This document shows positions 8,032 to 51,324 of a stretch of 64,000 nucleotides of DNA, one piece after another. Where the stretch lies: contig JAJDEH010000476.1 of assembly GCA_029259935.1 (NCBI GenBank), positions 34,170 to 98,169 of the forward strand, given 5' to 3'. How positions within the stretch are numbered: the stretch's first letter is position 1; each line of letters starts with the position of its first letter. The notes below the pieces were generated by a model that made no database searches, was not told the origin of the DNA, and saw only the letters and a program-made list of their open reading frames with translations. Position numbers and translations under genes: made by a program. The stretch comes from Planctomycetota bacterium (GTDB lineage Bacteria; Planctomycetota; Planctomycetia; Pirellulales; Pirellulaceae).

Positions 8032-9939
8032 TCACGGCTCTACCTTCTTCACACGAACATCGACCGTGCCGCTGGCCGGGATATCGACGCGCACCGTGAG
8101 AATGCAATGTTCTTTGTTATCGCTCGTTATCCTTGATTCGATGCTGCCTCCTTCGGCGCGATATTCGCCCGACTTCAGCAGAAAGGTTATTCTTCCCAAA
8201 GGAAACGCCTGTCGATAGTTGTTCGTGATCGTCGCCGTGTTGCTGGTTGACGTGCCATCGTTGGCGGATGAGAAGTTCACACGTAACGGTGGCATCTCAT
8301 CTCGGGCAAACGGAATCGGTGCCGTCTCGTGGCCGTCGTAGGTGCATAAGTCGACTCGATTGTTCTGAAAGCGAACGACGCGAAAGCTGACGGCGTTGGT
8401 CTTGCCGACTCGTCGAGTGGGCGTGGCGCCCAGGTTCATGACCTTCTTGCCGATCCCGTGAGCGTCGTGGATCATGCGAATACCGTGGCGATCGAGGAAT
8501 TGGATCGGCGCGTTGCTTTCAAACGCATTGATGATCTTCAGCCTAGCCTTGGGCCGAGCCGCCAGCAACGCCTCTGCCTTCTGCGTGCCGACGTGCCACG
8601 GGTGACCAAAGTTCAACACGCTGATGTCGGGCCCCAAATCGATCCGCCCAACCGGGTCGCCGAACCACGATTCGTGGCCGGGAAACTGGTGGTTTCCAAA
8701 CGTGATGCCGTAAGGCATTTCCAATCCAGAAAAGGCACCGGAAATGTAGGCCGGGTTGCACGCCGTGCTGCACAGTACCATGTCCGGAGCGATGATATTG
8801 ATCATTGTCGCCAGTCGCTTGAGGTATTCAGCTTGGTACTGAGCCGACGTATCGAGATGGCCGAACGTCACCAGCACCGGATCCGTTGTCGGATAGTCTT
8901 GTATGACGTGAACGCTGCGCGGAGATCGGCACAAGCCCGTGCGACGTCCTCCGGTGATTTGCACTTCCAGATCGTACACTCCGGGTGGCATGTCCGTTGG
9001 TAATTCGGCAACGACTTCGCGGTCATAGTAGTACGCGGCCGATTCGTCCTCCTTGAACGTGAGCACCCGCGAGATCGTCGCCGGTCCAACCGATCGTGTC
9101 AGGCGCACTTGGTCGATCGTCGAGTTGAAGCCAAGGAACCTGGCTCGAAACGATTCGCCCGGACGGCGAGTCGCGGGGCGGTTCATGGCCGGAAAGCGAA
9201 AGCGGCGAATGACCGTCGCGTCGTCGCGCCGCATGTAGATTGGCGGCAGTTTCGTTTCTTGCCCGGCGACAATTTCAAGCAGCTCAACGCGAGCGGTCCG
9301 CCATCCGCTGGCCACGACCTCTAGCGCATAGTCCTTGCTCGGCGGTAAGCCCGTCAGAGCACAGCCGCCCGTCATCCAATTCCGCACCAGGCTGTCGCGA
9401 ACGATCTTGTCGCCGTCGCGCAGGATCGCTCGGGCATCGACCAAGTAGGCATTCGCCTCGCCGTTGAGCGTAAAGCGCACATCGCCGCGGGGTTGCGTCC
9501 ACGTACGAAAACTTTCGATCCGGCAGCCACTACCATTGGCCTGAAGATGCTCGATCCGCACGGTATGTCGGCCGTTCTTTAGCCCCCCTGCCAGCAAAAC
9601 TTCACGCGGCAGCTCGCGCGGGCTCAAGGCCTTGGCATCACTGCCGTCTATGGAAACTTGGAGTAGGCCCAAACTGGGCGGACCGTATGCCGGTACGTTA
9701 TGTCCGCCCAATCGAACCGCAACCGCCGTGCCGTCGAATGAAAATTCCAGCTTCGCGGCGTCCTGCTCGGTACGAAGGTGGCTCGTCGCCGCGTAGCGAA
9801 ACCGATCTTCGCGCCATTCGCCGTGGCGCGTCACGCGTTGAGCGTCCAAGGCGGAAACGACTTCATCCGCGCCAAGTGCCGAGCTCTGGACCGTCAAGAC
9901 GGTGAGTGACAGCAACCAACATGAAACACAGATCTTCAT
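8032..9939 (-). CDS. Secreted protein with jelly-roll-like and metallophosphoesterase-like regions
   Basis: A 635-residue protein with a clear signal peptide (residues 1-23, ending SSALGA). Residues about 40-150 resemble a carbohydrate-binding beta-sandwich (VRLGGH, then GRHTVRIEHL). Around residues 350-520 there is a stretch like a calcineurin-type phosphoesterase: TFGHLDT, then ITFGNHQFPGHE and NFGHPWHVG. The GNH motif is kept but the usual Asp following it is Gln, and I could not locate a full set of metal ligands, so activity is doubtful. The C-terminus is another beta-rich domain. It follows the zinc-module gene by 68 bases on the same strand and could be cotranscribed. Function unknown. 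Confidence 0.7.
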   Translation of the reverse strand: MKICVSCWLLSLTVLTVQSSALGADEVVSALDAQRVTRHGEWREDRFRYAATSHLRTEQDAAKLEFSFDGTAVAVRLGGHNVPAYGPPSLGLLQVSIDGSDAKALSPRELPREVLLAGGLKNGRHTVRIEHLQANGSGCRIESFRTWTQPRGDVRFTLNGEANAYLVDARAILRDGDKIVRDSLVRNWMTGGCALTGLPPSKDYALEVVASGWRTARVELLEIVAGQETKLPPIYMRRDDATVIRRFRFPAMNRPATRRPGESFRARFLGFNSTIDQVRLTRSVGPATISRVLTFKEDESAAYYYDREVVAELPTDMPPGVYDLEVQITGGRRTGLCRSPRSVHVIQDYPTTDPVLVTFGHLDTSAQYQAEYLKRLATMINIIAPDMVLCSTACNPAYISGAFSGLEMPYGITFGNHQFPGHESWFGDPVGRIDLGPDISVLNFGHPWHVGTQKAEALLAARPKARLKIINAFESNAPIQFLDRHGIRMIHDAHGIGKKVMNLGATPTRRVGKTNAVSFRVVRFQNNRVDLCTYDGHETAPIPFARDEMPPLRVNFSSANDGTSTSNTATITNNYRQAFPLGRITFLLKSGEYRAEGGSIESRITSDNKEHCILTVRVDIPASGTVDVRVKKVEP

Positions 9940-10007
9940 TGGTGATCCTACCAGGTTCGAATTATGAATTATGATTGCGGCAGTTCCCTGGCATGCCGAA
10001 AGACTAA

Positions 10008-11987
10008 CTAGCTAACACGCGTCACCTTGTCGACTTTGCCGACTATCAACTCATCCGTGATAACGCCGCCGTCGGGAAGTTCTTCGTAGACTTCAAGCAG
10101 CAAGTTCTCCATTCCCGTTAGGACACGGCATTTTTCGTCGGGCGCTAGTTCGTCAAAGCCGGTAGCATGTGCTCCAGATTGCTGGCGATAGGGCGCTAGA
10201 AACAACCGCTCAACCGGTGCCAGCGCCAGGTAATGGAGTACGGCCTTCATGACCAGCTTGGCGACCACCTCTGGGCCGGCCGAATCGTCAATGCTTTGCA
10301 TGTGGGGCTTCAAGCATTGAGCCACGCTGAGGATCCGCATGTCGTTCATCATGTTTCCTTCACGCTGGATGGCTCCGCCTGCCACCGCACGGTAGCCGCT
10401 TTGCGTCAGGCCGCCGCCGATCAACTCCGCCATCATCGCCGACAGTGGATCCGCCGCAGGCTCCTTGCGAATGTAAGCCTCCGCAATCCCGGCAAGCCTA
10501 GTCAACTCAGCCGTGGAGGGACCGCTGCCATGGTACGCCGCCGCCTCTTCAACCGGCGCTTGTGCGGCGGCAATCTCGCCGGACAGGCCCTCCAAGCGGT
10601 CCAGCATTCGGTTCAGCGCCGGGCGCTGCGAACCTGCGACCTTGGCCGGGTCGTTTGCCAGATCATGCGCCAGTTGTTTCGCTTTTTCGATCGTGGCCGG
10701 ATCCTTCTGCTCGTTCGCGAGATTAAACCAACACGAAGTTAGCCAAAATTCGCCTTCGTGGTGTGGTGTGGGCACTTGGGCGTGAACCTCGAAACAGGCA
10801 ATGGCATCGCGCGACCGATCGTGGACCATCAAGTCCTTGCCAAAATCATACAACCGCTTGCAGACCGCCGGCGCCAACGGCTGGTCACCCCGCAGTCCTT
10901 GGTCGCGCACGCCTCCGAGATAGCAAGTCAAACGGGGCAACAGCAGTTCCGTCAGTCGCCCATGATCGAGATCGGGCAGTCCTAACCGCGGATGTGCCTG
11001 CCGAACTTTTGGATAACCGGCAAGTATCGTCGCCAAATATGTGACGCGATCCAGTTTGTGAAGTTGAGCAATGTCCTCGCCGACAAGGTCGATCTCATCC
11101 AAGGGATAAGCCGAACAGAGTTCTCCCACCTCGTCGTCCGTGTATCCGGCGATAAAGCGATAGATGTCGCCAACGTCGTTGGTTGCGTCAAAAGCATCAA
11201 CGATGGACGGTGCCGCGGCAGGCGTGCTAGACGCAGTGGCCGGGTTTTCCGCGGGCGGCGAAGTTCCGCCTTGCTCGCTCACCAGACAGGCGCTGCAAGT
11301 GGCGTCTCTCCAATCGCCCTCTCGGCAAGCAATGCAAACGGGTTGGTCGCAAGCCATGCACCTGACCAACATCAGCTCGGCCACGATGCGGGCCGCGGTC
11401 CCCAAATCGTGGAAAGTCGTCGACTTCAGCGCCAGATCGAAATGTCGCTCTCCCATCGTCGTGACAACCGTGTCCCTGAGTGCATGCCAGGCTTCGGGCG
11501 CGGCAGACATCATGATCACTAGCGGCGTATTACGAGTCGGAAGTAAGACTCCGCACTGAGCGCAGCAGTCGCAGTCGTCATCAACGATTTCCGCTTTCTG
11601 GAATAGCTTTTTCAGGCCGTCGTTGGCCCGGCCGCGCGAAGGCAATTTAGCCGGAGTTTTTTCCGCTGGCATCGCTGAATGATCCGCCGTTACGCCGGAC
11701 GAACCGCTTGGTATTTGTGTTTGTATTTCCGCACGCGGCGTACTTTCGTCATCCGCAGCGGGTTGCTCTGGTTGCGCGGCATCAACAATGGCGGAGATCG
11801 CGTTGTCGCCATGTTGACCGCTGGATGCTGGACAGGACTTGCAACTGACCGTCTCACCCAAATCGTTGCGGCAGGCGATGCAAACGCGGTCGTCGCAGTC
11901 TTTGCAATTCAGCAAGCTGAGTTCGGTGGCGATATTGGCCAGCGTGCCGAAGTCGTGGATGACCATGGACTTCAGGGGCCAAATCAA
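10008..11987 (-). CDS. C-terminal part of a frameshifted zinc-module protein with helical domain
   Basis: This 659-codon frame is best read as the downstream part of one gene starting at 13671, because its first 52 codons complete a cysteine module whose first half ends the upstream frame; the ATG at 11987 is probably not a real start. It finishes module 3 (C28, C31, C36, C39, C49, C52 in this frame) and holds a complete module 4 (CxxC at 142/145, HFD at 182-184, then C210, C213, C218, C221, C231, C234). From about residue 260 it is a long alpha-helical, TPR-like region without known motifs, including YDFGKDLMVHDRSRDAIACF. Joined product would be about 1220 residues. No known function. Confidence 0.75.
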   Translation of the reverse strand: MIWPLKSMVIHDFGTLANIATELSLLNCKDCDDRVCIACRNDLGETVSCKSCPASSGQHGDNAISAIVDAAQPEQPAADDESTPRAEIQTQIPSGSSGVTADHSAMPAEKTPAKLPSRGRANDGLKKLFQKAEIVDDDCDCCAQCGVLLPTRNTPLVIMMSAAPEAWHALRDTVVTTMGERHFDLALKSTTFHDLGTAARIVAELMLVRCMACDQPVCIACREGDWRDATCSACLVSEQGGTSPPAENPATASSTPAAAPSIVDAFDATNDVGDIYRFIAGYTDDEVGELCSAYPLDEIDLVGEDIAQLHKLDRVTYLATILAGYPKVRQAHPRLGLPDLDHGRLTELLLPRLTCYLGGVRDQGLRGDQPLAPAVCKRLYDFGKDLMVHDRSRDAIACFEVHAQVPTPHHEGEFWLTSCWFNLANEQKDPATIEKAKQLAHDLANDPAKVAGSQRPALNRMLDRLEGLSGEIAAAQAPVEEAAAYHGSGPSTAELTRLAGIAEAYIRKEPAADPLSAMMAELIGGGLTQSGYRAVAGGAIQREGNMMNDMRILSVAQCLKPHMQSIDDSAGPEVVAKLVMKAVLHYLALAPVERLFLAPYRQQSGAHATGFDELAPDEKCRVLTGMENLLLEVYEELPDGGVITDELIVGKVDKVTRVS

Positions 11988-13671
11988 AGTGATTTTGGCC
12001 CAAGGTGAGGACGACCAAATCCTTGAACGCGGAAAAGGCTTGGGGCTGGTTGGCGATCATCAAGGTGAGCGTCAATATGGAGTCAACCGTTGGCAGCAGA
12101 ATCTTACATCGATCGCACTCGGCAAAATCCGCGACTTCGCTCCTTTCGTAAAACGCCTTCAATTCGCCATTGTGCCGGTCGTGGGACGACGCCGATCCGG
12201 CTTGCGCCGGCGCGGAAACCTCGACACGTGGTTCGGTGTCCGCCGCCCGGCACTTGCGCCGGTGTTTTTGCAGGCTTTTCAACTTCAGGCGAGTGCCGCA
12301 ATCGGAGCATGTCGTCCACTCGCCTTGATCCGGCTGGGCCGTCACCGGAGGTTCGACGGGTGGGCATTCCGATTGCTTCGCGCCATCGCCCAATGACTTT
12401 GTTGGATGCCACTTTTTACGATGTTTGTCCAAGCTTTGCCGCTTGACGCGGGCGCCGCAATCGGGGCAACTAGTCCACTGCTCGTCTTTCGCCTCCTCCA
12501 TTGCGTCGGCTTCGACAGTACCGCCGGATCTGGAGGAGATCGGGGCGCTGTGCGTGGCGGCGGGTTCTTGCGATGCAACGGATGATAGTTCCGTGGCTAA
12601 CGATTCAAGTTCTTCGGCATGATCAGTCACGAACCGGTGGACGGCTGCTTCGCGAGACTGGCCCGCATCGTTGCCGTCGCCCGCTACATCGGTCCGATCA
12701 GGAAGCACCCGCGATTCTTGGACGGCCGCTTCCGTTTCGTTCGCCGACGAATCATCAGCGGTTGCAATGCCGTCGGCCAGCTCAGGCGCGCCAATCGATT
12801 GGGATTCCGTTGATGTTGAAGCACCGGGCGCGCTTTCTGGCCCGCGGTCGGCATCGTGTTGCTTGGCTTCCGTTTCAAGCGGACTTGAAGGCGGGCTCGT
12901 GGCCGCTGGCGGCCAAGCATTCGCTTTCTTGTCGCAGCCGGCGCATGTCGTGCCCTGCGCGTTGTCCTTACGGCAAGCTCGGCAAAACAGTTGTCCGCAG
13001 TCGCCGCAGGGCTGCAGTTTGAACTGGTTCAATACATGATCGCGTGTTGCGGCATCGGGATTGGCGGCGGATGCACCTGGCAAGTCGAAGTGTTGCCCGC
13101 CCAACAACTTCACGATGCTCGCTTGATATGAACACCACGCCTTGTTTTGATCGTCGAATCCCTGTAGCAACGGCTGGCCAAATTCGTGCGGAAGTAACAC
13201 GCCACAGCCGGCGCACGTCCCAACATGGCCGGTATTACCGACCTTCTCGAAGAACTTTTGTAACTTTGGGTTGGCACCGCCTCGGCGAATGGACTGCGTG
13301 CCCCCAATGCACTCCACGCAAGCGGTGGAGTCACCTTTGTTCTGACGGCACGCTTGGCAGAACTGCCGGCCACAGCGGTCGCACGGCTGCAGCTTGAATT
13401 GGTTCAGTACGTGAGTACGGTTTTGATCGCCGGAACTCGCGCCAGATGCCGGCGGCATGTCGAAATGCTGCTTCCCAAGCAGCTTCATAATGCTCAACTC
13501 GAAAGAGCACCAAGCCTTGTTCCGAGCATCGAAACCGTGCAAAAGCGGCTCGGCAAATTCGTGCGGAAGCATCAAGCCACAGGCGGCGCACGTCCCAACT
13601 TGGCCGGCGTTGCCAAGTTTCTCGAAAAACTTACCAAGCTTTGCGTTCGCGGCGTCTCGCCGAACAGCCAT
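11854..13671 (-). CDS. N-terminal part of a frameshifted multi-module zinc-binding protein
   Basis: This frame gives 605 residues, but only about the first 565 look real; the last 40 are a basic out-of-frame tail after a frameshift at 11975-11978. It contains two closely similar modules (residues 10-121 and 134-246), each with N-x2-L-x2-FFEK, CxxCG, AWCS, LLG-x-QHFD and then six cysteines (CxxC-x4-CxxC-x9-CxxC). An acidic low-complexity linker follows, then a C2H2 finger (C402, C405, H417, H422), a C2HC finger (C455, C458, H470, C474) and the first half of module 3 (C519, C522, HFD at 561). No signal peptide. It starts 57 bases after the related gene 13729-15492. Function unknown. Confidence 0.75.
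   Translation of the reverse strand: MAVRRDAANAKLGKFFEKLGNAGQVGTCAACGLMLPHEFAEPLLHGFDARNKAWCSFELSIMKLLGKQHFDMPPASGASSGDQNRTHVLNQFKLQPCDRCGRQFCQACRQNKGDSTACVECIGGTQSIRRGGANPKLQKFFEKVGNTGHVGTCAGCGVLLPHEFGQPLLQGFDDQNKAWCSYQASIVKLLGGQHFDLPGASAANPDAATRDHVLNQFKLQPCGDCGQLFCRACRKDNAQGTTCAGCDKKANAWPPAATSPPSSPLETEAKQHDADRGPESAPGASTSTESQSIGAPELADGIATADDSSANETEAAVQESRVLPDRTDVAGDGNDAGQSREAAVHRFVTDHAEELESLATELSSVASQEPAATHSAPISSRSGGTVEADAMEEAKDEQWTSCPDCGARVKRQSLDKHRKKWHPTKSLGDGAKQSECPPVEPPVTAQPDQGEWTTCSDCGTRLKLKSLQKHRRKCRAADTEPRVEVSAPAQAGSASSHDRHNGELKAFYERSEVADFAECDRCKILLPTVDSILTLTLMIANQPQAFSAFKDLVVLTLGQNHFDLAPEVHGHPRLRHAGQYRHRTQLAELQRLRRPRLHRLPQRFG
11975..11978 (-). other. Frameshift site inside the zinc-module gene
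   Basis: On the minus strand the sequence reads GATTTGGCCCCTGAAGTCC. Removing one C from the CCCC run gives D-L-A-L-K-S, which matches the same place in module 4 (HFDLALKSTTFHDLG) exactly and joins the frames 13671-11979 and 11974-10008 into one. The shift is therefore a one-base insertion relative to the ancestral reading frame. It may be an assembly error, a true pseudogenising mutation or a slippery site; the sequence alone cannot decide. Confidence 0.85.
12934..13644 (-). repeat. Tandem internal duplication encoding cysteine modules 1 and 2
   Basis: The stretches 13309-13644 and 12934-13272 encode two consecutive copies of the cysteine module. They are visibly similar in DNA as well as protein (for example both carry AAATTCGTGCGGAAG and GCGCACGTCCCAAC on the plus strand), which points to a fairly recent in-gene duplication. 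The other three modules in the region have diverged much further. Confidence 0.8.
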
Positions 13672-13728
13672 GGATGCTACTCCCAGGAGGTCGATGGTTC
13701 TAATGAGAGATTAGTTGCCCACGAATCA

Positions 13729-15492
13729 CTATTCCAGCAGCTTTTCCAGTGCGTCGACCGACTCTTCCATACTCTTGATCGCGGAATCAACTGCCGTCGC
13801 GCCTGGTCCCGAGAGGTTGGATCGCCTTCGCTTCAGTTCGGCTAGCTTCGCACGGGTTTCTTGAAGATCTTTGGACAGTTGTTCCCTGTCTGAAAGTGGC
13901 ACCCGTGTTTTGGTTGGATTGTCTTGCGGCACGGTATCGGCGGTCGCCGGATCGGAGGTCGGGGTGAACTGGTCTGTTGCGCCCGAATCGGATTGGACCT
14001 CCGCCGGCGCGACGGCCGAAGCAGGGTTGGGCCGATTGTAGCCGGCAACCCGGCTCAAAAAGCTAATCGCCAGCGGCAGCAAACACAATATTGCAATGGC
14101 CCATCCGCTGAAACGGATGGATTTGTCGTGACGTTCGTATTTCGAATCATCAACTCCGCGCTTCTTGTGATTCGCTTTCACGAGCACGGAAATGGTCGCC
14201 AACGGAATCATGAACAGAATTGTCAACCCGATCGCCACGCAAGGCGACGCGATCGTCAACAGCACCTTGCTGCCAAAACCTGGTTCGATGAGGTATTCGA
14301 ACCAGACCATGCCGAGGAACACCGCGGTAAACAACATGCTGATGTACGCGCCGACATGGGGCACCGCCTCGGAGTCTGAGTTCTTTTTGGCGTTTTCACG
14401 GGATGAACTCTTTCGCGCGGTGACACCACTTTTCTTCCCATCACCACCAACCCCGTGACGGTCGCGACATTTATTCTCGTGACGACTGAGGTTCTTGGTC
14501 TTGACCAGGGTGTTGCAAAGCGAACACTTTACCCAGCCCTGCTCTTCTAATTCCGCCGAAATAGTTTCGGTTTCGGACGTTACCGCCTCGTCGATAACCC
14601 GATCTTCCGGAAGGTGGGTTTCGTCACCGTCTGGAAAGTCGGATTCGTCGTTCAGTTGAGCATCGTTTAGCTGAAGGTCGCCTCGTTGAACGTTGCTTTG
14701 TTGAGTGTCGCTGGGCTGATGATCGCTTGTTTGATTGTCGTTTCGTTGCAGAGGAGGCTGGTTTTCGGGTACCTCCACAATTTCCGGACTTGGTCGATGC
14801 CTGACTACGGACATTGGCTGACCGCGGAAAATCGTCGAGGTCACGTCACTCCAGTTGTCTTGATCGTCGGCCATCGCGTCGGTAACGAAGTCCGGTTCGA
14901 ACTCGTTTTGGGTTCGCAGCAGTTCGACGGCGATTCGCGAACTCCACTCAAGGCCTTGCGTCTCCTCAAACATGGCGATGACACGCGGATGGATGTAGTA
15001 CGTAGTGAACCCGTCTTCAACCTGTTTGTGTATCAGTGTCGCAACGATGCGAGCGACGCGCTTCGCTGGTGCGTCTTGTCGTTCCTCGGCGGAGGCCGAA
15101 CTGCATTGATTACAGACCGCATCCTTTCGCGGTCCGCTCCGGCAGCCGATACAAAAACGTCCCCCGCATCGCGTGCAGTCACTCAAGACCCATTCGGATA
15201 CATAGTCAGCTAGAGCGCCGACATCACGAATACGCGCACCCGAGAGGTTGAAATGCTGCTCGCCCAAAATCGAGATGACGGCGTCTGAGAAGTTTCGCCA
15301 GAGAGGCCCGTTCTGGCCGGAAGTGGCCAAGTTGAAAAACTTGGTCGATACCTTGTCCATCCCACTGGGCAGAAGGATGCCACATCCGTCACACTCGGAG
15401 TAACAATCGCTCAAACCGACTTCTGACTCTTCGTAGAATCTACGAAGCTCGGCGTTGAGGCCGGCATTCTTGGCTTTGAGGTTGCTTGCCAC
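13729..15492 (-). CDS. Membrane-anchored zinc-module protein with C-terminal coiled coil
   Basis: A 587-residue protein starting at GTG 15492; an in-frame stop lies ten codons upstream, so no longer start exists. Residues 12-130 form the same cysteine module as in the next gene (C34, C37, HFN at 80-82, C106, C109, C114, C117, C127, C130). Residues 251-282 are pentapeptide repeats of the type [NS]-D-x-Q-x. A C2HC finger is at C323, C326, H338, C342. Three hydrophobic segments follow (about 381-400, 410-437, 463-482), then a Pro/Ala/Thr-rich stretch and a C-terminal coiled coil (about 540-587). With the module and finger cytosolic it would be a membrane-bound partner of the next gene. Function unknown. 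Confidence 0.8.
   Translation of the reverse strand: MASNLKAKNAGLNAELRRFYEESEVGLSDCYSECDGCGILLPSGMDKVSTKFFNLATSGQNGPLWRNFSDAVISILGEQHFNLSGARIRDVGALADYVSEWVLSDCTRCGGRFCIGCRSGPRKDAVCNQCSSASAEERQDAPAKRVARIVATLIHKQVEDGFTTYYIHPRVIAMFEETQGLEWSSRIAVELLRTQNEFEPDFVTDAMADDQDNWSDVTSTIFRGQPMSVVRHRPSPEIVEVPENQPPLQRNDNQTSDHQPSDTQQSNVQRGDLQLNDAQLNDESDFPDGDETHLPEDRVIDEAVTSETETISAELEEQGWVKCSLCNTLVKTKNLSRHENKCRDRHGVGGDGKKSGVTARKSSSRENAKKNSDSEAVPHVGAYISMLFTAVFLGMVWFEYLIEPGFGSKVLLTIASPCVAIGLTILFMIPLATISVLVKANHKKRGVDDSKYERHDKSIRFSGWAIAILCLLPLAISFLSRVAGYNRPNPASAVAPAEVQSDSGATDQFTPTSDPATADTVPQDNPTKTRVPLSDREQLSKDLQETRAKLAELKRRRSNLSGPGATAVDSAIKSMEESVDALEKLLE
14647..14742 (-). repeat. Degenerate 15-bp tandem repeat coding [NS]-D-x-Q-x pentapeptides
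   Basis: About six and a half 15-base units lie in frame within the gene 13729-15492. The coded units are NDNQT, SDHQP, SDTQQ, SNVQR, GDLQL, NDAQL and a partial NDE. The period is exact, the third-position bases vary, so the array is old or under selection for the D and Q positions. Probably a flexible polar linker; it is not a classical A[DN]LxX pentapeptide-repeat fold. Confidence 0.7.
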
Positions 15493-15782
15493 GGAAAGTT
15501 GGAGAGGCTGAACTATGATCTACTGTCGCGTGACCGGAAAGTTTCTTTGGTCCGTCGCGACCTTCAACTATCGTAACCTCGATCGACTTGCCTCAATAGA
15601 CAATCGGCGATGGAAGACCGATTTGCGAACTTTTGAGCATTATGGGGATATCCCTGACGCCGCAGGGCAAGCTTGAGGCAACCGTTTGCTGGGCAGACGC
15701 CTTCGTGAAGGCCAAGGCGTCTCGTCGGTGCGCGCAAATGGCCTAGAGTTTCAACAGAGGCGATGTCCCGCCAACGATTGAG
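15493..15782. other. Intergenic stretch without a recognised gene
   Basis: Between the GTG start of the membrane zinc-module gene and the stop of the sugar-dehydrogenase fusion gene. It holds one perfect hairpin (15695-15722), described separately. The promoter of the zinc-module operon should lie here, but I see no convincing pair of -35 and -10 boxes. Confidence 0.5.
15695..15722 (-). terminator. Perfect 9-bp hairpin downstream of the sugar-dehydrogenase gene
   Basis: AGACGCCTT at 15695-15703 pairs perfectly with AAGGCGTCT at 15714-15722 across a ten-base loop. It lies 61 bases past the stop at 15783 on the minus strand. There is no T-run after it, so it may be an RNA-stabilising 3' hairpin or a dispersed palindrome instead of an intrinsic terminator. 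Confidence 0.4.
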
Positions 15783-18773
15783 CTACTTCAGACTGCTCAA
15801 GAAGGCGGTCAGATCCGCGACTTGCTGAGCGGTCATGTCCCGCAACAACAGGTCTGGCATGATCGATTGCTGTTGGGCGACCATGTCTTCCACCTCGTCA
15901 GCCGGGATCGTCGTGACCTTGTTCTTTGCGTCCTTCAATACTAGTTGCTCGGCGTCTCGCGACACTAGTAACCCGCTGTGCACTTGGCCGCTGACGGTTT
16001 GTACCAGATAGACACGATACTTCGGTTCGACTTCCTTGGAAGGATTCAGAATGGTGTCGAGCAATCTGCGGCGGTCGTACTTCTTGCCAATTTGGCTCAG
16101 ATCGGGTCCGACTTCGGCGCCCTTGTCTTTGATCTTGTGACAGTTCCGGCACTGTACGCCCGACGCTTCGAAAAAAAACCGGCGTCCCCGCTCGATGTCG
16201 CCCGCCATGGCGAGTATCTTTTCCGGAACGACCACGTTGCCCAGCCGCTGAGTGCGTTGTTCTTCGGGCAAATACCTTTCGAACAGATCACGAACGCGTG
16301 CGTCGGGATGTTTCGCCGCTTTGGTAATCACTTCAGCGCGAACGGATGTTGGCAGTTCTTGATTCGCGCCGTCGTTCAACGCATAGGCCAGCCGCAGCGC
16401 TCCCTGCGTGGATTCCAATATCTGATCGATGACCGAGTTGCTGCCTTGTGCCGAGCCTGCATTTTCTAGCTTCTTGAATGCCTCGCTAAGCAACAGCTCT
16501 TCCGCGGGCCGCTTGATTTGCCCGTCGGCGTAACTGCTGATCCAATCGTGCAGCAATTGAACTCCCGCGCTATCCACGACTGAAGATCCAATTCGTGGCA
16601 TACGGCCTGGACCTAATTTTGAGGTTCGATAGAGCATCACACTTTGAAACGGCTGCCCTGGCGCTAAAAGCTGTGCGTTAGGAATGTGAAAGCCGCCATG
16701 AGCCGGACGAACGCCGGCGATCTTCATGTCTTCCATTGTCAGCGTGGCCAGCAGATTGACGTCCGAATTGCCGCCACCCCATTTGCGATGGCAATGCGAA
16801 CAGTTGGCGTGCAGATAGGATCGGGCCCGCTGGCTGACGGGCGCGTCCTTGTCGTGATAGTCGACCAGTTTCTCTAGCTTGTCGGGTGATCGCGGCAGAG
16901 GTTCGGTGAACAAACCAATGTGCTCAAAGGTTCTCAGTTGATTAGCGATCGTCCCACCGTAGTCGTGATCTCGATTTAGTTGCAATGTATTCATGCCCAG
17001 TGCATACTTCGCCGCCATATTGTGACAGACGATGCATTCAGTTCGACTGGGGAAATGCCAAGTCTGAGTGCGTTTTCCGCCCGGAGCGGTGGCGTCTTGA
17101 ATGGTCAGTTTGCGGTCCAGGCCGCGCGGGTCTTCCAGCAACACGGCGTCGGTCTGGTCGTCGTTCCACAAATAGGTGTAGCCGCGCCAAAACTGCGCTC
17201 CCACGGCGTCCGAACCCTCGAGTTCTTCATAATGCAGAATTCGCGTTTCCAGCCGGCGGCGGCTTCGGGGGTTGCCGGTTTCCAGTTCCATGGACAAGGT
17301 TTCGACCGTGACCGTACCGTCGGGCAGTTTCCAACTATGCGGCGCTCCGGGAGCGGGCTGCGGATACACCGTGCCATCAAAAACAATTTGCGATTCACCC
17401 GGCAACGCCAGCAATCGCTGCTTGCTCGCTCCGTCGCACCATTGGGGAGCGATCACGGAATAGGGAATGACGCCCGGTGCCGGAACATGTTTTGCAACCG
17501 AAGCAAACAGGCCTGTCTCGCTCAGCCGCCGCGGAAACGAACTTCCGTCATCCACTACCGGGTTTTCTTCCAACTTACTGATGCGACCACTGATGTGATC
17601 GACTAAGAACAATTCGTTGTCGTGATCCTCGGTGAAACCTACCAAACGAAGACTAGAGTCCACCAGTTCGCCATGTTCGGTAACCTCTTTCTTTTTGGGA
17701 TCGTAGCGCAACATCCAGATCTTCCCCGAATCGTAATCACCATAGATGTAGGCGCCGCGAAGTTTGGGAATTCGTGAACCGTGGTAAACATAACCGCCCG
17801 TAATCGACCGGCACTCGACGTGATGATGTTCAAAAATAGGCTCGATAAACGGCGTTGGTCCCCGCGGACGATCCGGCCCAAACGGATGACTGCCTTCCAA
17901 CACACTCCATCCGTAATTTCCCCCACGCTCGATCTGCAAGACAGCCTCCCAGAGATCCTGCCCAATATTCCCCGTCCACAGCTTACCGGTCTTCCGATCG
18001 AATGCGATCTTCCAAGGCTGCCGTAACCCATAAGCCCAAATTTCGCCCCGCGCGTCGGGAACCTTGGTGAACGGGTTGTCGGCCGGGATGGTATACGGCT
18101 TGCCCGCGGACTGCCGATCGACGTCGATGCGCAGTATCGCACCCGAGAGATTTGTCAGATCTTGGCCCGTCCGATATTCATCCGCGATCCCGCTCGAGTC
18201 ACCCGTGGCGATGTACAAGTAGCCATCAGGACCAAACTTCAAGCAACCGCCGTTGTGACCGCCCGATGGCCAAGTGATCAAAACCTTCTCGCTCGTCGGA
18301 TCGACGCGTGGAGGATTGCCGCTTGCGTTGAAGCGGGCAACACGCGTCCCTTCCGGATGCTCTTCCGTGTGGACGAGATAAGTTACGTAACAAAAACCGT
18401 TCTTCGCAAATTCAGGATGAAACGCAAGGCCGTACACGACCTTCTTCATATCCAGAAACAGATCCGCCGATTCGGCCCGCGGGTCATTGGGAAACGAGTA
18501 GATCTTGCCATATCGCTCGACGACGAACATGCGATCCAATCCGGGAGCAAACGTGGCATCCAGCGGCTCGTCGAATTTCAGTTTGGGAAAGGCGCCCACG
18601 GTTCGATAGGGAGACGGCGGATCGGGCGAGCCCTTGATTTTGGAATTGGTCCAAGCCGTGCGTTTCGTTAGCCCGTAGGGTTTTTCATCGGCCAGCGATC
18701 CGTTAACCGAGTGGAGGAACCAAACGAGTACCGACAAGGCACACGACCGCACGAAAAGCTTGGAGCAGAGCAT
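15783..18773 (-). CDS. Secreted PQQ-type sugar dehydrogenase fused to c-type cytochrome domains
   Basis: From the ATG at 18773 the product is 996 residues with a signal peptide (LFVRSCALSVLVWFLHSVNG). An open frame reaches back to 19169 but would overlap ftsH and lacks protein-like composition. Residues about 30-400 are a glucose/sorbosone dehydrogenase beta-propeller (GGHNGG, ATGDSSG, AYGLRQPWK, GGNYGW). Then comes an SO2930/HNE_0200-type region with CIVCH and CSHCH, and the C-terminus (from about residue 850) is a TIGR02603-type haem domain with C875-x2-C878-H879. Expected role: periplasmic sugar oxidation passing electrons to haem. Such fusions are typical of planctomycetes; the exact sugar is unknown. 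Confidence 0.88.
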   Translation of the reverse strand: MLCSKLFVRSCALSVLVWFLHSVNGSLADEKPYGLTKRTAWTNSKIKGSPDPPSPYRTVGAFPKLKFDEPLDATFAPGLDRMFVVERYGKIYSFPNDPRAESADLFLDMKKVVYGLAFHPEFAKNGFCYVTYLVHTEEHPEGTRVARFNASGNPPRVDPTSEKVLITWPSGGHNGGCLKFGPDGYLYIATGDSSGIADEYRTGQDLTNLSGAILRIDVDRQSAGKPYTIPADNPFTKVPDARGEIWAYGLRQPWKIAFDRKTGKLWTGNIGQDLWEAVLQIERGGNYGWSVLEGSHPFGPDRPRGPTPFIEPIFEHHHVECRSITGGYVYHGSRIPKLRGAYIYGDYDSGKIWMLRYDPKKKEVTEHGELVDSSLRLVGFTEDHDNELFLVDHISGRISKLEENPVVDDGSSFPRRLSETGLFASVAKHVPAPGVIPYSVIAPQWCDGASKQRLLALPGESQIVFDGTVYPQPAPGAPHSWKLPDGTVTVETLSMELETGNPRSRRRLETRILHYEELEGSDAVGAQFWRGYTYLWNDDQTDAVLLEDPRGLDRKLTIQDATAPGGKRTQTWHFPSRTECIVCHNMAAKYALGMNTLQLNRDHDYGGTIANQLRTFEHIGLFTEPLPRSPDKLEKLVDYHDKDAPVSQRARSYLHANCSHCHRKWGGGNSDVNLLATLTMEDMKIAGVRPAHGGFHIPNAQLLAPGQPFQSVMLYRTSKLGPGRMPRIGSSVVDSAGVQLLHDWISSYADGQIKRPAEELLLSEAFKKLENAGSAQGSNSVIDQILESTQGALRLAYALNDGANQELPTSVRAEVITKAAKHPDARVRDLFERYLPEEQRTQRLGNVVVPEKILAMAGDIERGRRFFFEASGVQCRNCHKIKDKGAEVGPDLSQIGKKYDRRRLLDTILNPSKEVEPKYRVYLVQTVSGQVHSGLLVSRDAEQLVLKDAKNKVTTIPADEVEDMVAQQQSIMPDLLLRDMTAQQVADLTAFLSSLK

Positions 18774-19161
18774 GGATTCATCCTTCGCCACGAAGAAATG
18801 CCGGATCAATACAGGGACGAGTATAAGCCACCCGCCAGCGAGTTCAACAATTCCGGCGGTGGGCCGCGATTCGTGCGGCGAGCCGCCGGCCGCTGCAGAT
18901 TTCTGCCTTCGACGTGCCGTGTTCGACTTTCGATATTCGCCACCGAATACAGCGTTTCGCTCGTTCCTCTCACCAACCCGGGCCATCAAACCCATCGATT
19001 CAACATCTCGATGAATAAAAACGCCGCGGAACGTCTCCAATAACCATCGGTTTATCGATCTCCGTGCCTTGCCCACGTCGCACTTTTTCAACTTGTCCGA
19101 TACAATTCCGGTACAAAGATGCAACCAGTGACAGGGATTCAAGGGAACCCCGGAGGAATTA

Positions 19162-21171
19162 ATGGACAAAGACGATAAGCAAGGTCCTTCTCAACCACAA
19201 GATCGCACGCCTTGGCTGCGTGGACCCAATCTATTCATCGCGGCCCTGCTCGGCACGCTGGCCATTGTGCTGGTCATTCGGCTGGCGACGCCCACCCCTT
19301 CGCTGATTTCCCGCGAGTTCTTTGAACTGCAAGTTGAAGCACGCGTTGACACGGACGATAGTGGCAAGAAAACTTCCAACGTCACCAATGTGACGATCGG
19401 CCCCACCGAGTTGCGCGGAGAATTCCGCAAGTTGCCGCCCACGCCGTTGGAGCTTGAGGAACGCAAGGAGAAAGTCCAAAAGTACTTTCGGATGGACATG
19501 CCGAAGAGCCTGGAAGAGCAGGACAAGCTGTGGAAATATCTAGAGCAGAACAATGTCTATCCAAAACGCGCGCAAGAAGACAGTACTTTCACGGTCCTGA
19601 TCATGATCGCCGTGGCTCTGCCGTTTGCCATTCTTCTGTTTATGTGGATTTCCTATCGACGGGCACAAAACCAGATGCTTGGCGGTGGCGGTTTTCTGTC
19701 GGGGTTCAGCAAGAGTCCCGCCAAACGCTATGAGTCGAGTGACCATCCAACGACGTTTAAGGACGTTGCCGGTTTGGATAATGTAAAAGGCGATCTCATG
19801 GAGATCGTCGACTATTTGAAGGATCCGCAAAAGTTCCAGCGGTTGGGCGGACGCGTGCCCAAGGGGGTCTTGCTGAATGGAGCCCCGGGCACCGGCAAGA
19901 CCTTATTGGCTCGTGCCGTGGCAGGCGAGGCCGACGTTCCCTTTTTCTCCGTGAACGGATCCGAGTTTATTCAGATGTTTGTCGGCGTTGGGGCCAGCCG
20001 CGTGCGGGATTTGTTCAAAACCGCCAAGGAAGCGTCGCCCTCCATCATCTTCGTCGACGAAATCGATGCGGTCGGCCGGCAGCGCGGCGCGGGGCTAGGC
20101 GGTGGCCACGACGAACGCGAACAAACACTGAATCAAATCCTCAGTGAAATGGACGGCTTTCTGCCGAACGAAGCCACGATTGTGATGGCCGCGACCAATC
20201 GGCCCGACATCCTCGATCCGGCGTTGTTGCGTCCGGGCCGCTTCGACCGCCATATCACCGTGAATCGTCCCACGCTGAAAGGGCGTCTTGAGATTTTCAA
20301 AGTCCACATTCGCGAAGTCCCTCTCGCCGACAACGTTGACTTGGAAGTGTTGGCCGCGGCAACCGTGGGCCTGACCGGCGCGGACATTCGGAATATCGTC
20401 AACGAATCGGCGTTGTGGGCGGCTCGTAACGATAAGAATGTGGTCGAAATGGAGGACTTTGAATACGCCCGCGACAAGGTCCTCATGGGGGCCAAACGCG
20501 AGGAAGTGCTGAGCGCGGCGGAAAAGGAAAAAACCGCTTACCACGAAGGCGGCCATACGCTGACCGCTTGGAATCTGGAGGGCGCGCATCGCGTCCACAA
20601 AGTCACCGTGATTCCGCGCGGAAGAAGCCTTGGCGTCACGCAAATGCTACCGGGCGAGGATCGCATGAATCTGTCGGAGACCGAATTGCGCGATAACCTG
20701 GTTGTCTTGCTCGGCGGACGAGCCGCTGAAAAACTGGTGTACGACGAGGCGACCGTTGGTGCCGAAAACGACCTTGAAAAGGCGACCGGCATGGCGCGGC
20801 GGATGGTCACTCACTGGGGCATGAGCGAACGCCTCGGACCCGTTAGCTATAAGCTTAGTGAAGAAGATCCGTTCCTGGGGCGGGAGCTTCATCAGCAGCG
20901 GCAATTCAGCGAGCATACGATGGAGTTGATCGACCAAGAAGTCGCCCAACTGCTGCACGAATCGGCGGACAGGGCTTTTGCCATGTTACAAAAAGACCGT
21001 GATAAGTTGGAGAGATTGGCCCAAGCCCTCGTGGCCGAGGAAGAGCTTGACGAACAGCGAATTACCGAGCTGATCGGACCCTCGGTGCGTGCAGCGGCCG
21101 AGAAAAATGGAAAGCCCAACACGGCGACGGTCGTATCCGAAACCGATTCCGTGCAAAATCCAGCGACGTAA
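19162..21171 (+). CDS. ftsH: ATP-dependent zinc metalloprotease FtsH
   Basis: A 669-residue membrane AAA+ protease that degrades damaged or regulatory membrane and cytosolic proteins. Two transmembrane helices (about 27-46 and 133-152) flank a periplasmic domain. The AAA module has Walker A GAPGTGKT near residue 240, Walker [16 protein letters not shown] near 295 and the second region [19 protein letters not shown]. The zinc site is HEGGH at 461-465; the third position is Gly where many FtsH have Ala, which keeps HExxH intact. The Asp ligand lies in ENDLEKAT. A strong ribosome site GGAGG is just upstream of the ATG. rsgA follows after 26 bases, so they are probably cotranscribed. Confidence 0.98.
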
Positions 21172-25206: not shown

Positions 25207-26529
25207 TTAAGCTTCAAGCGGTAACTTCCGGTAGCTGCGGTCCAGCACATCCATCGGATGAAGCACGGTCAAACCCTGGCTTTGCTCTCGCGCCTCGCAG
25301 CCGATTTGCATCAGGCATCCGGTATTGGCGGTGATAACGACCTGGGCTCCGGTGTCCACGATGTTGCGCATCTTGCGCCGACTCAGGCGTTCCGCCATTT
25401 CTGGTTCCGTCAGGTTGTAAGTGCCCGCCGCTCCACAGCATAGTTCCGACTCGGCCAATTCCGTCAATTCCAGTCCGGGTATCTGGCGTAGAATGTTTCG
25501 CGGCGCATCGCGAACGCCTTGGGCATGCACCAAGTGGCAGGCGTCGTGATAGGTCGCCTTGACCGGAATCTCGCCGCGCGGCGCGACGAGCCCCAATTGA
25601 TCCAGAAACTCATGGACATCCTTGACCTTGTCCGCGAACTGTTGTCGTTTGTCCTGAGCATCATCCTGCCAATGGTGGCCGTAATCTTTCAACATCGATG
25701 CGCAGCCGGCCACGTTTAATATCACGGCGTCCACATCGTCCAGATCAAAGGCTGCCACGTTTTGGTCGGCGAAATGCCGGGCCGGATCGCTGCTGCCGGC
25801 ATGAAAGTGAATCGCCCCACAGCAGCCTTGATTCGGAGGGACCACGACTTCGCAACCATTTTCCTGCAACACGCGGGCCGTCGCCCAATTCGTGCCACGA
25901 AACATCACATCCGAAACACAACCGCTGAACAATGCAACGCGTGCCCGTCGCGTGCCTTTGGCTGGCAGCACCTCCGGCAGCGAATCCTGCCGCTTCTCCA
26001 ACTTTGGCAGCATGCGAACCAAGCGGCCCAGACGCGGCGGCAGCCAACGCCACAGACCCAAGCCGTTGACTAAACGGTCAAGCCGAAAGAACTGGGCGAT
26101 TCGCGCCGGCAGTAGTGCGGTCCGCATGCGAGTGGGATACGGAAACATGCCAAACAGAATCCAGCGATGAAACCAATCGTCGGTCTTTTTCTTCCCGCCC
26201 TCGCCCGTCTGTTCCATCGCCACCCGAAAAGGCTCGATCAACTTGCCGTACTGCACGCCAGAGGGACACGCCGTTTCACAAGCACGGCAATCCAGACAAA
26301 GTTCCAGATGCCGCCGTACTTCTTGATTCAACTCGAGTCGCTCATCCGTGACGGCCCTCATCAGATAGATTCGTCCCCGTGGGCTGTCGTTTTCATTTCC
26401 TAGTTCGGCGTACGTCGGGCAACTCGCGGTGCACAAACCGCAGTGGACACAATCCAAGAACAGGCTGTAATCAATATTTCCGCCAGGCGTGTTCGAGTTT
26501 TGTGCGTCGGTCGCGGGCGATTGGCTCAT
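25207..26529 (-). CDS. glcF: Glycolate oxidase iron-sulfur subunit GlcF
   Basis: A 440-residue protein with two ferredoxin-type 4Fe-4S motifs near the N-terminus (C27, C30, C33, C37 and C78, C81, C84, C88) and two CCG domains (for example GCCGAIHFHAG and LCCGAAGTYNL). In the glycolate oxidase complex GlcF carries electrons from the flavin subunits to the quinone pool. Its ATG overlaps the glcE stop by four bases, so the three glc genes form one operon in the order glcD-glcE-glcF. The genes are on minus and face ppc. Confidence 0.96.
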   Translation of the reverse strand: MSQSPATDAQNSNTPGGNIDYSLFLDCVHCGLCTASCPTYAELGNENDSPRGRIYLMRAVTDERLELNQEVRRHLELCLDCRACETACPSGVQYGKLIEPFRVAMEQTGEGGKKKTDDWFHRWILFGMFPYPTRMRTALLPARIAQFFRLDRLVNGLGLWRWLPPRLGRLVRMLPKLEKRQDSLPEVLPAKGTRRARVALFSGCVSDVMFRGTNWATARVLQENGCEVVVPPNQGCCGAIHFHAGSSDPARHFADQNVAAFDLDDVDAVILNVAGCASMLKDYGHHWQDDAQDKRQQFADKVKDVHEFLDQLGLVAPRGEIPVKATYHDACHLVHAQGVRDAPRNILRQIPGLELTELAESELCCGAAGTYNLTEPEMAERLSRRKMRNIVDTGAQVVITANTGCLMQIGCEAREQSQGLTVLHPMDVLDRSYRKLPLEA

Positions 26530-27767
26530 TGGTATACGAATCGTCCAGGGTTGAGGATGTCATGCGGGTCAAACTGGCGCTTCACGTCGTCCATGATGAA
26601 ATAAGGAATCTCCACGCCGCCCCAATGACACTGGTGAGTCATCTCGCTTCCGCCAGGGTTCGACAAAACCGTGCAGTGGCCCTGCAGCGAACTGGCCAGT
26701 GGTTGCAATCGCCCGACCAACATTCGCGAAAGCCCTTCGGTCGGAATTTCGGCAAAACGCGCGATCACGACACCGTTGCCGGCGTGCGATTGAATGGAAG
26801 CTTCGGGGTCAATTGCATGCAACGCCTCGATCAAGGGCGTTACACCGCTGGGAACCACATTGGCTTTGAGCACCAACGGTGCGTCGCTGTCGGGAAACTC
26901 GACAAGTCGCTTCCAAAGCGTTTCCGCGGCGGCCTGGTCGAGCTTACGATGGCTTGCCATTCCCAATTCGTCCCATTCACTCCTCAGTTGCTGCTGCATC
27001 CAGTTGACTTCGGCCTCGGTCCCCTCCAAACCGACAAGCAAATGGCACCTTTTCGACGAAACTCCGTCGGACGCATCGCTCAGTACATCGTCATTATTCC
27101 ACAGCGGCCCACCGAGCAGTTCAATTGCCGAGGGAGTTGTGGCTGAACTGGCCAACGCGGCGAGCAGTCGCTCCGCCGCATCCAGATCAGGAACATCGCA
27201 GTGCAGCAGCGCGAACGCTTCAGGAATGGGCTTCAACTTCAGCGTTACTTCCGTGATTACTCCCAGCGTGCCGAGCGACCCGGTTAGCAGTTTGCAAAAG
27301 TCAAACCCGGCCACATTCTTGACGACTCGGCCGCCGCCCTTAAAATCTCGTCCCCGACCATCCACCGCGGTAATGCCGATGACGTAATCTCGCAGGTTGC
27401 CCAGTCCATACCGGCGGGGTCCATTCCAATTCGTCGCAATCACGCCGCCAAGCGTCGCATCGCCCCGGCGCGGAACATCCACCGGCAAGCGTTGGCTCTC
27501 GGATGCCAACGTGTCACTGAGCTTTTCCATGGTGATGCCGGCTTCGACCGTGATCGTCATATCACGAGCCGGATAGTCAATTACCTGAGCAAGGTTCGTC
27601 AGTTTCAGCCCCAGCCCTTCGCGTTTGGCGGGCAGCCCATAATCGAGACTGGTGCCGCCCCCGATCGGGTAAATCGGAGTCACCGAATCGTGGGCCTGGC
27701 GCAGCGTCTCCGCCACCGATTCGGTGTTCTCGGGCTGGATCGTTTCGATGAGCGGAAGGGGTGGCAT
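26526..27767 (-). CDS. glcE: Glycolate oxidase FAD-binding subunit GlcE
   Basis: From the ATG at 27767 the product is 413 residues. A longer open frame to 27992 overlaps glcD and reads as random Arg-rich sequence, so I reject it. The FAD-binding PCMH loop is PIGGGTSLDYG near residue 38, then GGVIATNWNGPRRYGLG and VKNVAGFDFCKLLTGSLGTL. GlcE is the smaller flavin-domain subunit of glycolate oxidase. It starts five bases after the glcD stop and overlaps glcF by four. Confidence 0.93.
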   Translation of the reverse strand: MPPLPLIETIQPENTESVAETLRQAHDSVTPIYPIGGGTSLDYGLPAKREGLGLKLTNLAQVIDYPARDMTITVEAGITMEKLSDTLASESQRLPVDVPRRGDATLGGVIATNWNGPRRYGLGNLRDYVIGITAVDGRGRDFKGGGRVVKNVAGFDFCKLLTGSLGTLGVITEVTLKLKPIPEAFALLHCDVPDLDAAERLLAALASSATTPSAIELLGGPLWNNDDVLSDASDGVSSKRCHLLVGLEGTEAEVNWMQQQLRSEWDELGMASHRKLDQAAAETLWKRLVEFPDSDAPLVLKANVVPSGVTPLIEALHAIDPEASIQSHAGNGVVIARFAEIPTEGLSRMLVGRLQPLASSLQGHCTVLSNPGGSEMTHQCHWGGVEIPYFIMDDVKRQFDPHDILNPGRFVYQ

Positions 27768-27772
27768 CGCGT

Positions 27773-29212
27773 TCAAACGGCGGCTCGGCGGGAAGGATGT
27801 TTCTGTTCTATTCCGCAAGCGCCGGCCGTGGGTAGCATCTTGTCGGGACTCAGGTTGTTCTTCGGATTTAACGCCATTCGCAAACGGGTCATGGCCGCCA
27901 AATCGTTCTCGGTGAACATCTTGCTCATGAAGTGGACCTTCTCCACGCCGATTCCATGTTCGCCGGTGACGCTGCCACCGCAAGCCAGACACTCATCCAA
28001 GATCTCACCGCTGGCCTTAAGCACTAAGTCGACCTGCTCGGTATCCCGTTCGTCGAACAGCAAAATCGGATGCAAATTGCCGTCGCCGGCATGAAAGACG
28101 TTGACGATGCGCAACCCATAATGATCGCCGATCTCGCGAATCCGCCGCAGCATGTGAGGCAGTTTGGTGCGCGGCACGACTCCGTCTTGAGTGCAATAAC
28201 TGGGACTTAGCCGGCCAATCGCACCGAATGCCTGCTTGCGGCACTTCCAAATTTTCTGACGTTCGCTGGCATCGGCCGCCTGTCGAACTTCGCGCGCGCC
28301 GCGGTTGGTGCAGATGTCGATAATGCGATCGCGCTGCTCGTCCAAACCAGCCTCCAGACCGTCGACCTCGACCAACAAGATGGCTTCGGCATCGAGCGGA
28401 AATCCAAAGCTGAAGGCCGCTTCAAGGGCTTCCAAGATTCCTTGGTCCATCATTTCCAAGGCGGCGGGTACGATTCCCGCGCCAATGATGTCGCTGATCG
28501 CGTTCGTTGCGTCATCGATCGACTCGAACACGCCGAGCAGCGTGCGATAGCCCTGAGGATCGGGCGTCAGCCGCACCCAGACCTTGGTCACAATGGCCAA
28601 CGTCCCTTCGCTGCCGACAATCGTCCCGACTAGGTCGAGCCCCAACGGATCCTCGACTGGGCCGCCAATTTGGACGATTCTGCCGTCCGCCAACACCGCT
28701 TCGACACCCATGACGTGATTGACCGTGACACCGTATTTCAACGTATGTGGGCCACCTGAGTTCGTGGCAACGTTGCCGCCGATCGTGCAGGCACCTTGAC
28801 TGGAGGGATCGGGAGCGTAATGAAATCCCGTGCCCTTGAGAGCCTGAGTCAGCCAAACGTTGACCACGCCCGGCTGGACCACCGCATAACGATCGCGGAG
28901 GTTGATTTCCAAGATCTCTTTCATCCGCGTCAACACAATCATCACGCCGCCGCCGACTGGCAGGCAGCCGCCCGCCAGACTGGTTCCAGCACCACGTGGC
29001 AGAAACGGCACATCCGCATCGTTGCAAGCACGCACGATTTGAGCGACATGGTCGGATGTGCGTGGAAAAACCACCAGATCCGGGCTGTTCTTCTCGATCA
29101 CAAAGCCGTCGCACTCGTAAACTAACAGCTCGCTGCTGCTGGTCAGCACGCTGTCAGGTCCAACAATGGCCCGCAGGCGATCAATTAACTGAGATTGAAG
29201 GGTGGCTGACAT
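27773..29212 (-). CDS. glcD: Glycolate oxidase catalytic FAD subunit GlcD
   Basis: From the ATG at 29212 (MSATLQSQLIDRL) the product is 479 residues, close to the usual GlcD length of about 480-500. The FAD loop reads PRGAGTSLAGGCLP, followed by GGNVATNSGGPHTLKYGVT, and the C-terminal cap has FHAGDGNLHP and GSVTGEHGIGVEK, typical of the VAO/lactate-glycolate dehydrogenase class. It oxidises glycolate to glyoxylate. The open frame continues to 29353, but that extension covers the hairpins at 29311-29346 and is not protein-like. Confidence 0.96.
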   Translation of the reverse strand: MSATLQSQLIDRLRAIVGPDSVLTSSSELLVYECDGFVIEKNSPDLVVFPRTSDHVAQIVRACNDADVPFLPRGAGTSLAGGCLPVGGGVMIVLTRMKEILEINLRDRYAVVQPGVVNVWLTQALKGTGFHYAPDPSSQGACTIGGNVATNSGGPHTLKYGVTVNHVMGVEAVLADGRIVQIGGPVEDPLGLDLVGTIVGSEGTLAIVTKVWVRLTPDPQGYRTLLGVFESIDDATNAISDIIGAGIVPAALEMMDQGILEALEAAFSFGFPLDAEAILLVEVDGLEAGLDEQRDRIIDICTNRGAREVRQAADASERQKIWKCRKQAFGAIGRLSPSYCTQDGVVPRTKLPHMLRRIREIGDHYGLRIVNVFHAGDGNLHPILLFDERDTEQVDLVLKASGEILDECLACGGSVTGEHGIGVEKVHFMSKMFTENDLAAMTRLRMALNPKNNLSPDKMLPTAGACGIEQKHPSRRAAV

Positions 29213-29310
29213 AGAGCTAATGGTGCTGACCGCCGTTTCGCGCAGTGAAACGATGCCTGAATTTATATGACGCCTGATGCATGCCGGGAAGTTGGCCGTT
29301 AGTAAAGTGT

Positions 29311-29346
29311 CCACCGGCAGAGCCGGTGGCTTGGGCGTAAGCCCAA
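29311..29346. repeat. Two adjacent perfect hairpins upstream of glcD
   Basis: Hairpin one pairs CCACCGGC (29311-29318) with GCCGGTGG (29322-29329) over a three-base loop. Hairpin two pairs TTGGGC (29331-29336) with GCCCAA (29341-29346) over the loop GTAA, a GNRA-type tetraloop when read as plus-strand RNA. They are one base apart. The arrangement resembles a dispersed palindromic (REP-like) element; I see only this one copy in the window. It lies 98 bases upstream of the glcD start and could also affect that operon's leader. Confidence 0.6.
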
Positions 29347-29722
29347 AGGGCAAGATTTAGGTCGTGCGGTTTCGCTAATGGATTGCCAAACGGCGCTTCA
29401 TTTCAAGTCGTGCAGTTTCTCGTACTCCATACATTCAACGAAGCGGCTTCGACAGTTAATTCAACGCACAGCGAATCGCAACTGGCACAGCCAACTTTTC
29501 GGCCACGCCCGGAGGACGTGGATATTAAGGATGCATTATACAGAAAACTGCCGATCCTTGTTTGAACGGCCCTCGCACAGCGTTCACAAGAAGGCCCGCG
29601 CGAAGTCGAGGAAACTGGGGTGCCAATCCAACGGTCGCAAGCTTGTGTGCCGCTATAGTGATTGACTTGCTGATCGGTGTCAGCGTGTCGAGCTTTTTTT
29701 TCCCGCACCGCGCCAAAACCAA
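29347..29722. other. Non-coding stretch next to tRNA scar, no recognised gene
   Basis: About 375 bases with only short, unconvincing open frames. Two near-identical words, GTCGTGCGGTTTCGCTA at 29361 and GTCGTGCAGTTTCTCGTA at 29407, form a short direct repeat. A run of eight T lies at about 29694-29701. The mix suggests decayed sequence, perhaps the remains of an element that used the tRNA gene as its target, but I recognise no integrase. Confidence 0.45.
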
Positions 29723-51281: not shown

Positions 51282-51324
51282 GTCCGTGGATTCCCTTGCG
51301 GCACTGATTGAGGGGTGAAGCGAG

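Follow-up and report, generated by a model that had tools for sequence, protein, structure and literature searches.

What are the cysteine-rich segments that recur in two neighbouring genes of a planctomycete, and what could such a set of proteins do? The segments lie in a 64,000-nucleotide stretch of a Pirellulaceae genome (assembly GCA_029259935.1, contig JAJDEH010000476.1), here called the window, whose numbering is used for all coordinates; the locus covers positions 10008-15492 and comprises genes A and B. An earlier note on this DNA had described five copies of a zinc-finger-like module in a dedicated gene pair and had considered it unlike the RING or any other named finger. According to our results, the repeat is real, and the module probably has a known zinc-finger core that is predicted to carry a helical insertion.

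The five modules, each of about 115 residues and all on the minus strand, were found within a few bases of where the note had placed them: one in gene A (15097-15456, residues 13-132) and four in gene B, namely B1 (13300-13647), B2 (12928-13272), B3 (11826-12171) and B4 (11280-11624). When a hidden Markov model (HMM) built from four copies was run on the left-out fifth, it scored 82.2 bits for A, 116.9 for B1, 130.2 for B2, 97.1 for B3 and 95.0 for B4; the best of the shuffled sequences, 200 per copy with the cysteines fixed, reached only 18.2-23.7 bits. B3 is split between two open reading frames (ORFs) and entered this test as its two halves joined (11974-12171 and 11826-11975). The ligand pattern CxxC-x64-68-CxxC-x4-CxxC-x9-CxxC is present in all four unbroken copies, and B3 has the same cysteine pairs, divided between the ORFs, with the last three pairs spaced identically. 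The eight cysteines in four CxxC pairs are thus borne out, as is the gap between the first CxxC and the HF[DN] motif, previously given as 36-47 residues, which counts 37 in B2 and 42 in A on the alignment. B1 and B2 also form a DNA repeat (71% identity over 300 nucleotides), and with nonsynonymous (dN) and synonymous (dS) divergences of 0.263 and 1.362 they are under purifying selection; for the remaining module pairs, dS was above 2.6 or undefined in 10 of the 13 compared. Moreover, the guanine-cytosine (GC) content by codon position of the three ORFs of the locus resembles that of six neighbouring genes. The high leave-one-out scores, the shared ligand pattern, the dN/dS values and the codon GC together indicate that the repeat is real at the protein level. 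A six-frame search of the whole window gave no sixth copy, all other matches having E values of at least 0.28.

We then asked whether the module belongs to a described family. Neither the modules nor the three ORFs gave a Pfam or NCBIfam match that passed its curated cut-off, and a profile of the uncut module against PDB sequences found the RNF4 RING as its best match, at E 0.31; when the first ORF of B was searched as a single sequence, its residues 217-251 matched RNF4 (E 0.0045). PADLOC gave no match at E≤0.01 among 8 proteins, and an anti-phage system was set aside on this ground. The claim that no named family spans the whole module is therefore upheld. Cores were also prepared by removing 47-50 residues from the middle of the B2 and A modules and the corresponding stretch from the other copies. 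The Pfam family IBR (PF01485) aligns to all five cores at one offset, in each case below its cut-off (E 2.8e-4 for B2, 0.0012 for B3, 0.028 for A, 0.14 for B1 and 1.7 for B4). It is the top family for three of the five; its matches run through the sixth (B1) or the seventh cysteine, and its best score is 21.3 bits on a core as against 13.0 on uncut B2, under a cut-off of 24.3. Among ten shuffled cores with fixed cysteines, just one gave an IBR match, which covered no more than its second half and had E 1.1, and shuffled cores met other families at E values down to 0.017. The profile of the cores had its best PDB match in RNF31/HOIP (E 0.011), in a region that we take to be RING1 and with the whole core spanned; protein kinase C delta, XAF1, EEA1, RPB9, other FYVE proteins and RNF4 followed, all at E≥0.27. 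Two details of these comparisons slightly lower our confidence in the main reading proposed below and raise that in two of its alternatives: the RNF31 alignment sets the third CxxC on residues other than cysteine, and the IBR score of the real B4 core is worse than that of the one matching shuffle. At the level of sequence alone, the link between the core and a known fold is thus no more than suggestive. The DnaJ-type zinc domain, with its CxxCxGxG motif, was rejected, the pairs of the module being followed by no GxG.

Structure prediction for B2 gave a model, without metal, in which the elements appear to follow the order of a treble clef (knuckle hairpin, primary hairpin, helix) and the second CxxC sits at a hairpin turn; in the cross-braced fold group, the turn of the primary hairpin and a C-terminal extension together form the second zinc site. 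FYVE-type fingers (Slp4/melanophilin and EEA1; families FYVE_2 and FYVE) account for four of the six VIA matches to this predicted fold and lead the list, all of them weakly, and PHD titles appear on six of the 27 Foldseek rows (E 1.8-6.6); a family missing from either list is not thereby excluded. We consider it fairly likely that the module folds as a binuclear treble clef of the cross-braced type into which a helical segment is inserted. Since the IBR alignment of all five insert-free cores and the treble-clef order of the model point the same way, the core is probably of known fold, and the earlier view that the module resembles neither RING nor other named fingers finds no support. Its novelty survives in part: the helical insertion and the tandem arrangement are probably new, whereas the zinc-finger fold itself is probably not. 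Among the papers listed in our searches of the open-licence PMC literature, none describes such a module, as far as titles and abstract openings tell.

Three groups of eukaryotic-type fingers invite comparison. FYVE-type fingers have eight zinc ligands in four pairs around a CxxC-x4-CxxC centre, as does the module, and they bind phosphoinositides through an R(R/K)HHCR motif. By direct reading, this motif is absent from the aligned modules, which differ further by the helical insert after the first CxxC and by HMM scores far below the cut-offs: FYVE (PF01363) reached at best 9.1 bits on the cores against 27.8, FYVE_2 (PF02318) 10.8 against 27.2, and neither was listed for the whole proteins in the Pfam scan. 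PHD fingers have C4HC3 ligands, whereas those of the module are all eight cysteines, and again the insert sets the module apart. An excerpt of PMC4999995 places PHD fingers in the cross-brace group, to which the module would also belong. The third group, the RBR ligases, is the one to which the IBR/BRcat alignment of the cores and the RNF31/HOIP match point. An excerpt of PMC3940038 gives their E3 ligase domains as RING1, BRcat and Rcat, in that order; the module proteins lack this triad and have instead like copies in tandem, with the insert. No RING or IBR family passed its cut-off in the three ORFs (Pfam, NCBIfam), and neither E1 nor E2 turned up in the Pfam scan of the window, which took in 43 of its 112 ORFs.

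The two genes have complementary layouts. Gene A (13729-15492, minus strand) encodes 587 residues, which combine a single N-terminal module with a small finger of the C2HC type and three helices predicted to span the membrane. The latter lie in a hydrophobic region (14038-14355, residues 380-485), where 19-residue Kyte-Doolittle windows above 1.6 form three groups, starting at residues 380-384, 408-423 and 458-467; from its sequence, A is probably membrane-anchored. Stretches rich in lysine and arginine, noted by eye, precede the first hydrophobic peak and separate the second from the third, which suggests that the zinc-binding part is cytoplasmic; the C-terminus of A, also by eye, carries a charged stretch. 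Gene B lies downstream on the same strand, 57 bases away, and the two are therefore likely to share one transcript. Its first ORF (11854-13671, 605 residues) holds B1, B2, a C2HH and a C2HC finger and the first half of B3; the second (10008-11987, 659 residues, of which the database entry has 554) holds the second half of B3, B4 and a C-terminal region (10011-11222, residues 256-659). These 404 residues are predicted, at low confidence, to be helical, and matched no named family in Pfam or NCBIfam; the structure prediction for the second ORF (predicted local distance difference test score, pLDDT, 44.6) was too poor for use. Inside B3, in the interval of roughly 11960-11980, the reading frame shifts once by a single base, and this may be either an assembly error or a real change. 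The 'gene pair' of the earlier note accordingly stands as two adjacent genes and not as one ORF each, because the frame change in the second gene makes three ORFs.

Besides the modules, both proteins carry small fingers. The spacing C-x2-C-x11-H-x3-C, which is that of UBZ4 fingers, is found in two of the three, at residues 323-342 of A (14467-14526, minus strand; XAF1_C E 0.0025) and residues 455-474 of the first ORF of B (12250-12309, minus strand; XAF1_C E 2.5e-4). The third, C-x2-C-x11-H-x4-H, occupies residues 402-422 of B (12406-12468, minus strand), and a rad18 model matches B residues 343-428 at E 0.0016. The two fingers of B form a 70-nucleotide DNA repeat with 73% identity. Although these fingers resemble the UBZ4, XAF1_C and zf-C2HC_2 families, all their profile matches are below the curated cut-offs; ubiquitin binding by them is putative.

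How could such proteins work? In the mechanism that we propose, the first and third CxxC would hold one zinc and the second and fourth the other, as a predicted cross-brace, and a helical piece of about 45-50 residues bearing the HF[DN] motif would interrupt the finger after its first zinc knuckle. The modules would most likely serve as protein-binding surfaces. A would provide the membrane anchor; B would act as a polyvalent adaptor and, on the inner side of the membrane, bring together a partner or, through a presumed A-B contact, A itself. Granted the fold, scaffolding at the membrane seems somewhat probable; taken jointly, a RING/FYVE/PHD-like cross-brace and a membrane scaffold make a tentative reading, a little short of an even chance. 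We further speculate that a new bacterial family has welded a helical domain into a RING/FYVE-type finger, and that tandem copies together with a membrane-anchored partner form a recruiting scaffold at the inner membrane, like the eukaryotic FYVE/Slp or RBR adaptors; in this full form the proposal is doubtful. If true, a bacterial family would join the RING/FYVE/PHD-like fingers, best known as eukaryotic adaptors and ligases, and the fold would prove to tolerate a large helical insertion placed after its first zinc knuckle and ahead of its primary hairpin. The locus would also be a test case for how proteins might be organised at a membrane in a bacterium with planctomycete-type cytochrome and caspase-WD40 genes.

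Other readings of the same data were weighed. The module could be of the IBR/BRcat type, with its zinc sites in linear order (first CxxC with second, third with fourth), its likeness to FYVE or RING fingers being superficial, and it would still be a binding domain. Of the Pfam families, IBR alone is listed for every one of the five cores, and it also appears for four of the five uncut modules (best E 0.091). However, its scores all stay under the cut-off, zf-CRD does better on B1 and B-box on B4, its matches extend no farther than the sixth or seventh cysteine, and the module ends in CxxC where IBR has H-x4-C. The linear zinc order of IBR (given in an excerpt of PMC3940038) also fits poorly with a model in which the second CxxC is at the hairpin turn and FYVE-type fingers head the VIA list, and we regard this alternative as rather unlikely. 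The RING/IBR-type similarity and the C2HC fingers with their weak XAF1_C and rad18 matches might instead point to a bacterial ubiquitin-like (Ubl) ligase system, in which a small modifier protein is handled by RING-like modules together with UBZ-like fingers. Prokaryotic conjugation systems that unite a Ubl with E1, E2, JAB and a RING-type E3 are indeed described in an excerpt of PMC7159879. Yet Prok-RING_2 was the only Prok-RING family listed by Pfam, below its cut-off (7.9 bits against 22.4), and no E1, E2, JAB or ubiquitin-like family appeared when 43 of the window's 112 ORFs (at least 120 residues) were scanned with Pfam at E limits of 10, 1e-4 or 1e-3, a scan in which a small modifier encoded by a shorter ORF could be missed. 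We consider a ligase system highly improbable.

That A and B use their many zinc fingers to bind DNA or RNA or to control transcription would be in keeping with the lysine- and arginine-rich helix regions that the C2HC and C2HH fingers carry (by eye) and with the CXXC and PHD chains among the Foldseek matches, all at E≥1.8. The probable membrane anchoring of A speaks against it, as does the absence of any helix-turn-helix family from the Pfam and NCBIfam matches (E≤10) of the three ORFs, and we consider it quite improbable. No more probable, in our opinion, is a decaying, lineage-restricted family without current function. The frame change in B3 would fit such a decay, as would the outcome of our searches, since no relative was found among proteins, genomes, viral contigs or plasmids. 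On the other hand, all eight ligand cysteines are kept across the frame change, which may itself be an assembly error, dN is well below dS for B1 and B2, and codon-position GC is like that of the neighbours.

The searches for relatives of the module must be read with their sensitivity in mind. Protein searches with residues 1-140 of A (271 candidates), residues 128-252 of the first ORF of B (66 candidates) and residues 110-659 of the second (the 7995 candidates sharing most words were scored) returned only the window's own protein in each case, on one contig of 98,169 bases. The search with A also missed the first ORF of B: the two sequences share no exact 5-residue word, yet the A module finds this ORF with a full-sequence E of 7.7e-29 at the same database size. 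The search is therefore blind at such divergence, and orphan status is unproven. A genome scan with B1 and B2 gave 125 pattern matches and a scan of viral contigs 193, none of them a relative; A had no pattern match in the viral contigs, and neither ORF of B matched a plasmid. A profile search of genomes around a Verrucomicrobia record found matches in 1 of 58 genomes (E≤0.05) and in 4 of 387 (E≤0.01, with no more than 11 candidates scored in any one genome), the two sets overlapping. All five matches are partial, two of the four from the larger set contain an internal stop, and at the one locus examined (L002) the match falls in an ORF opposite a longer ORF. In the phylum of the central genome, the window's PEP carboxylase matched 24 of 115 genomes (47% identity at best) and FtsZ_C matched 26 of 29, although not the central genome itself; the FtsZ_C result agrees with Verrucomicrobia and not with planctomycetes, most of which lack FtsZ. 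PSCyt1 gave 39 matches in the central genome and none in 14 control genomes, so the PSCyt1-type genes of the window are not diagnostic of its source.

Regulatory signals were sought around the two genes. No sigma-70-type promoter was seen in 9800-16000 (1.9 expected by chance), and the nine terminator-like sites in that region, against 8.0 expected, are at chance level; there was no Rfam match above the gathering score and no transfer RNA, so an RNA feature was set aside. By eye, an inverted repeat (15695-15722; arms of 9 bases, loop of 10) lies between gene A and the GSDH gene, and is perhaps a terminator. Directly downstream of gene B, a protein is encoded that has a CE2_N domain and is otherwise unassigned (8032-9939, minus strand). 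On the other side lies a GSDH and cytochrome c fusion (15783-18776, minus strand), for which a search of the genome collection with exact 8-residue patterns turned up a single relative, on a record titled Verrucomicrobia (58% identity in the best segment). Divergent from it, about 3.7 kb from gene A, stands an FtsH-type AAA protease (Peptidase_M41; 19162-21171, plus strand). FtsH-linked systems with Ubl conjugation are described in an excerpt of PMC7159879; apart from the protease, no component of such a system came to light.

Farther along the window, three adjacent genes (25207-29353, minus strand) with Fe-S/CCG, FAD-binding and FAD-oxidase domains resemble a glycolate oxidase set. A GntP-family permease (49257-51359, minus strand) matches its family in two stretches (for example 100-359 and 501-696), which suggests a long internal insertion in its sequence. 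A WD40-repeat protein with a C-terminal caspase (Peptidase_C14) domain is encoded at 61217-63901 (minus strand), and the window also carries PSCyt1/PSCyt2/PSD1 and DUF1501 genes.

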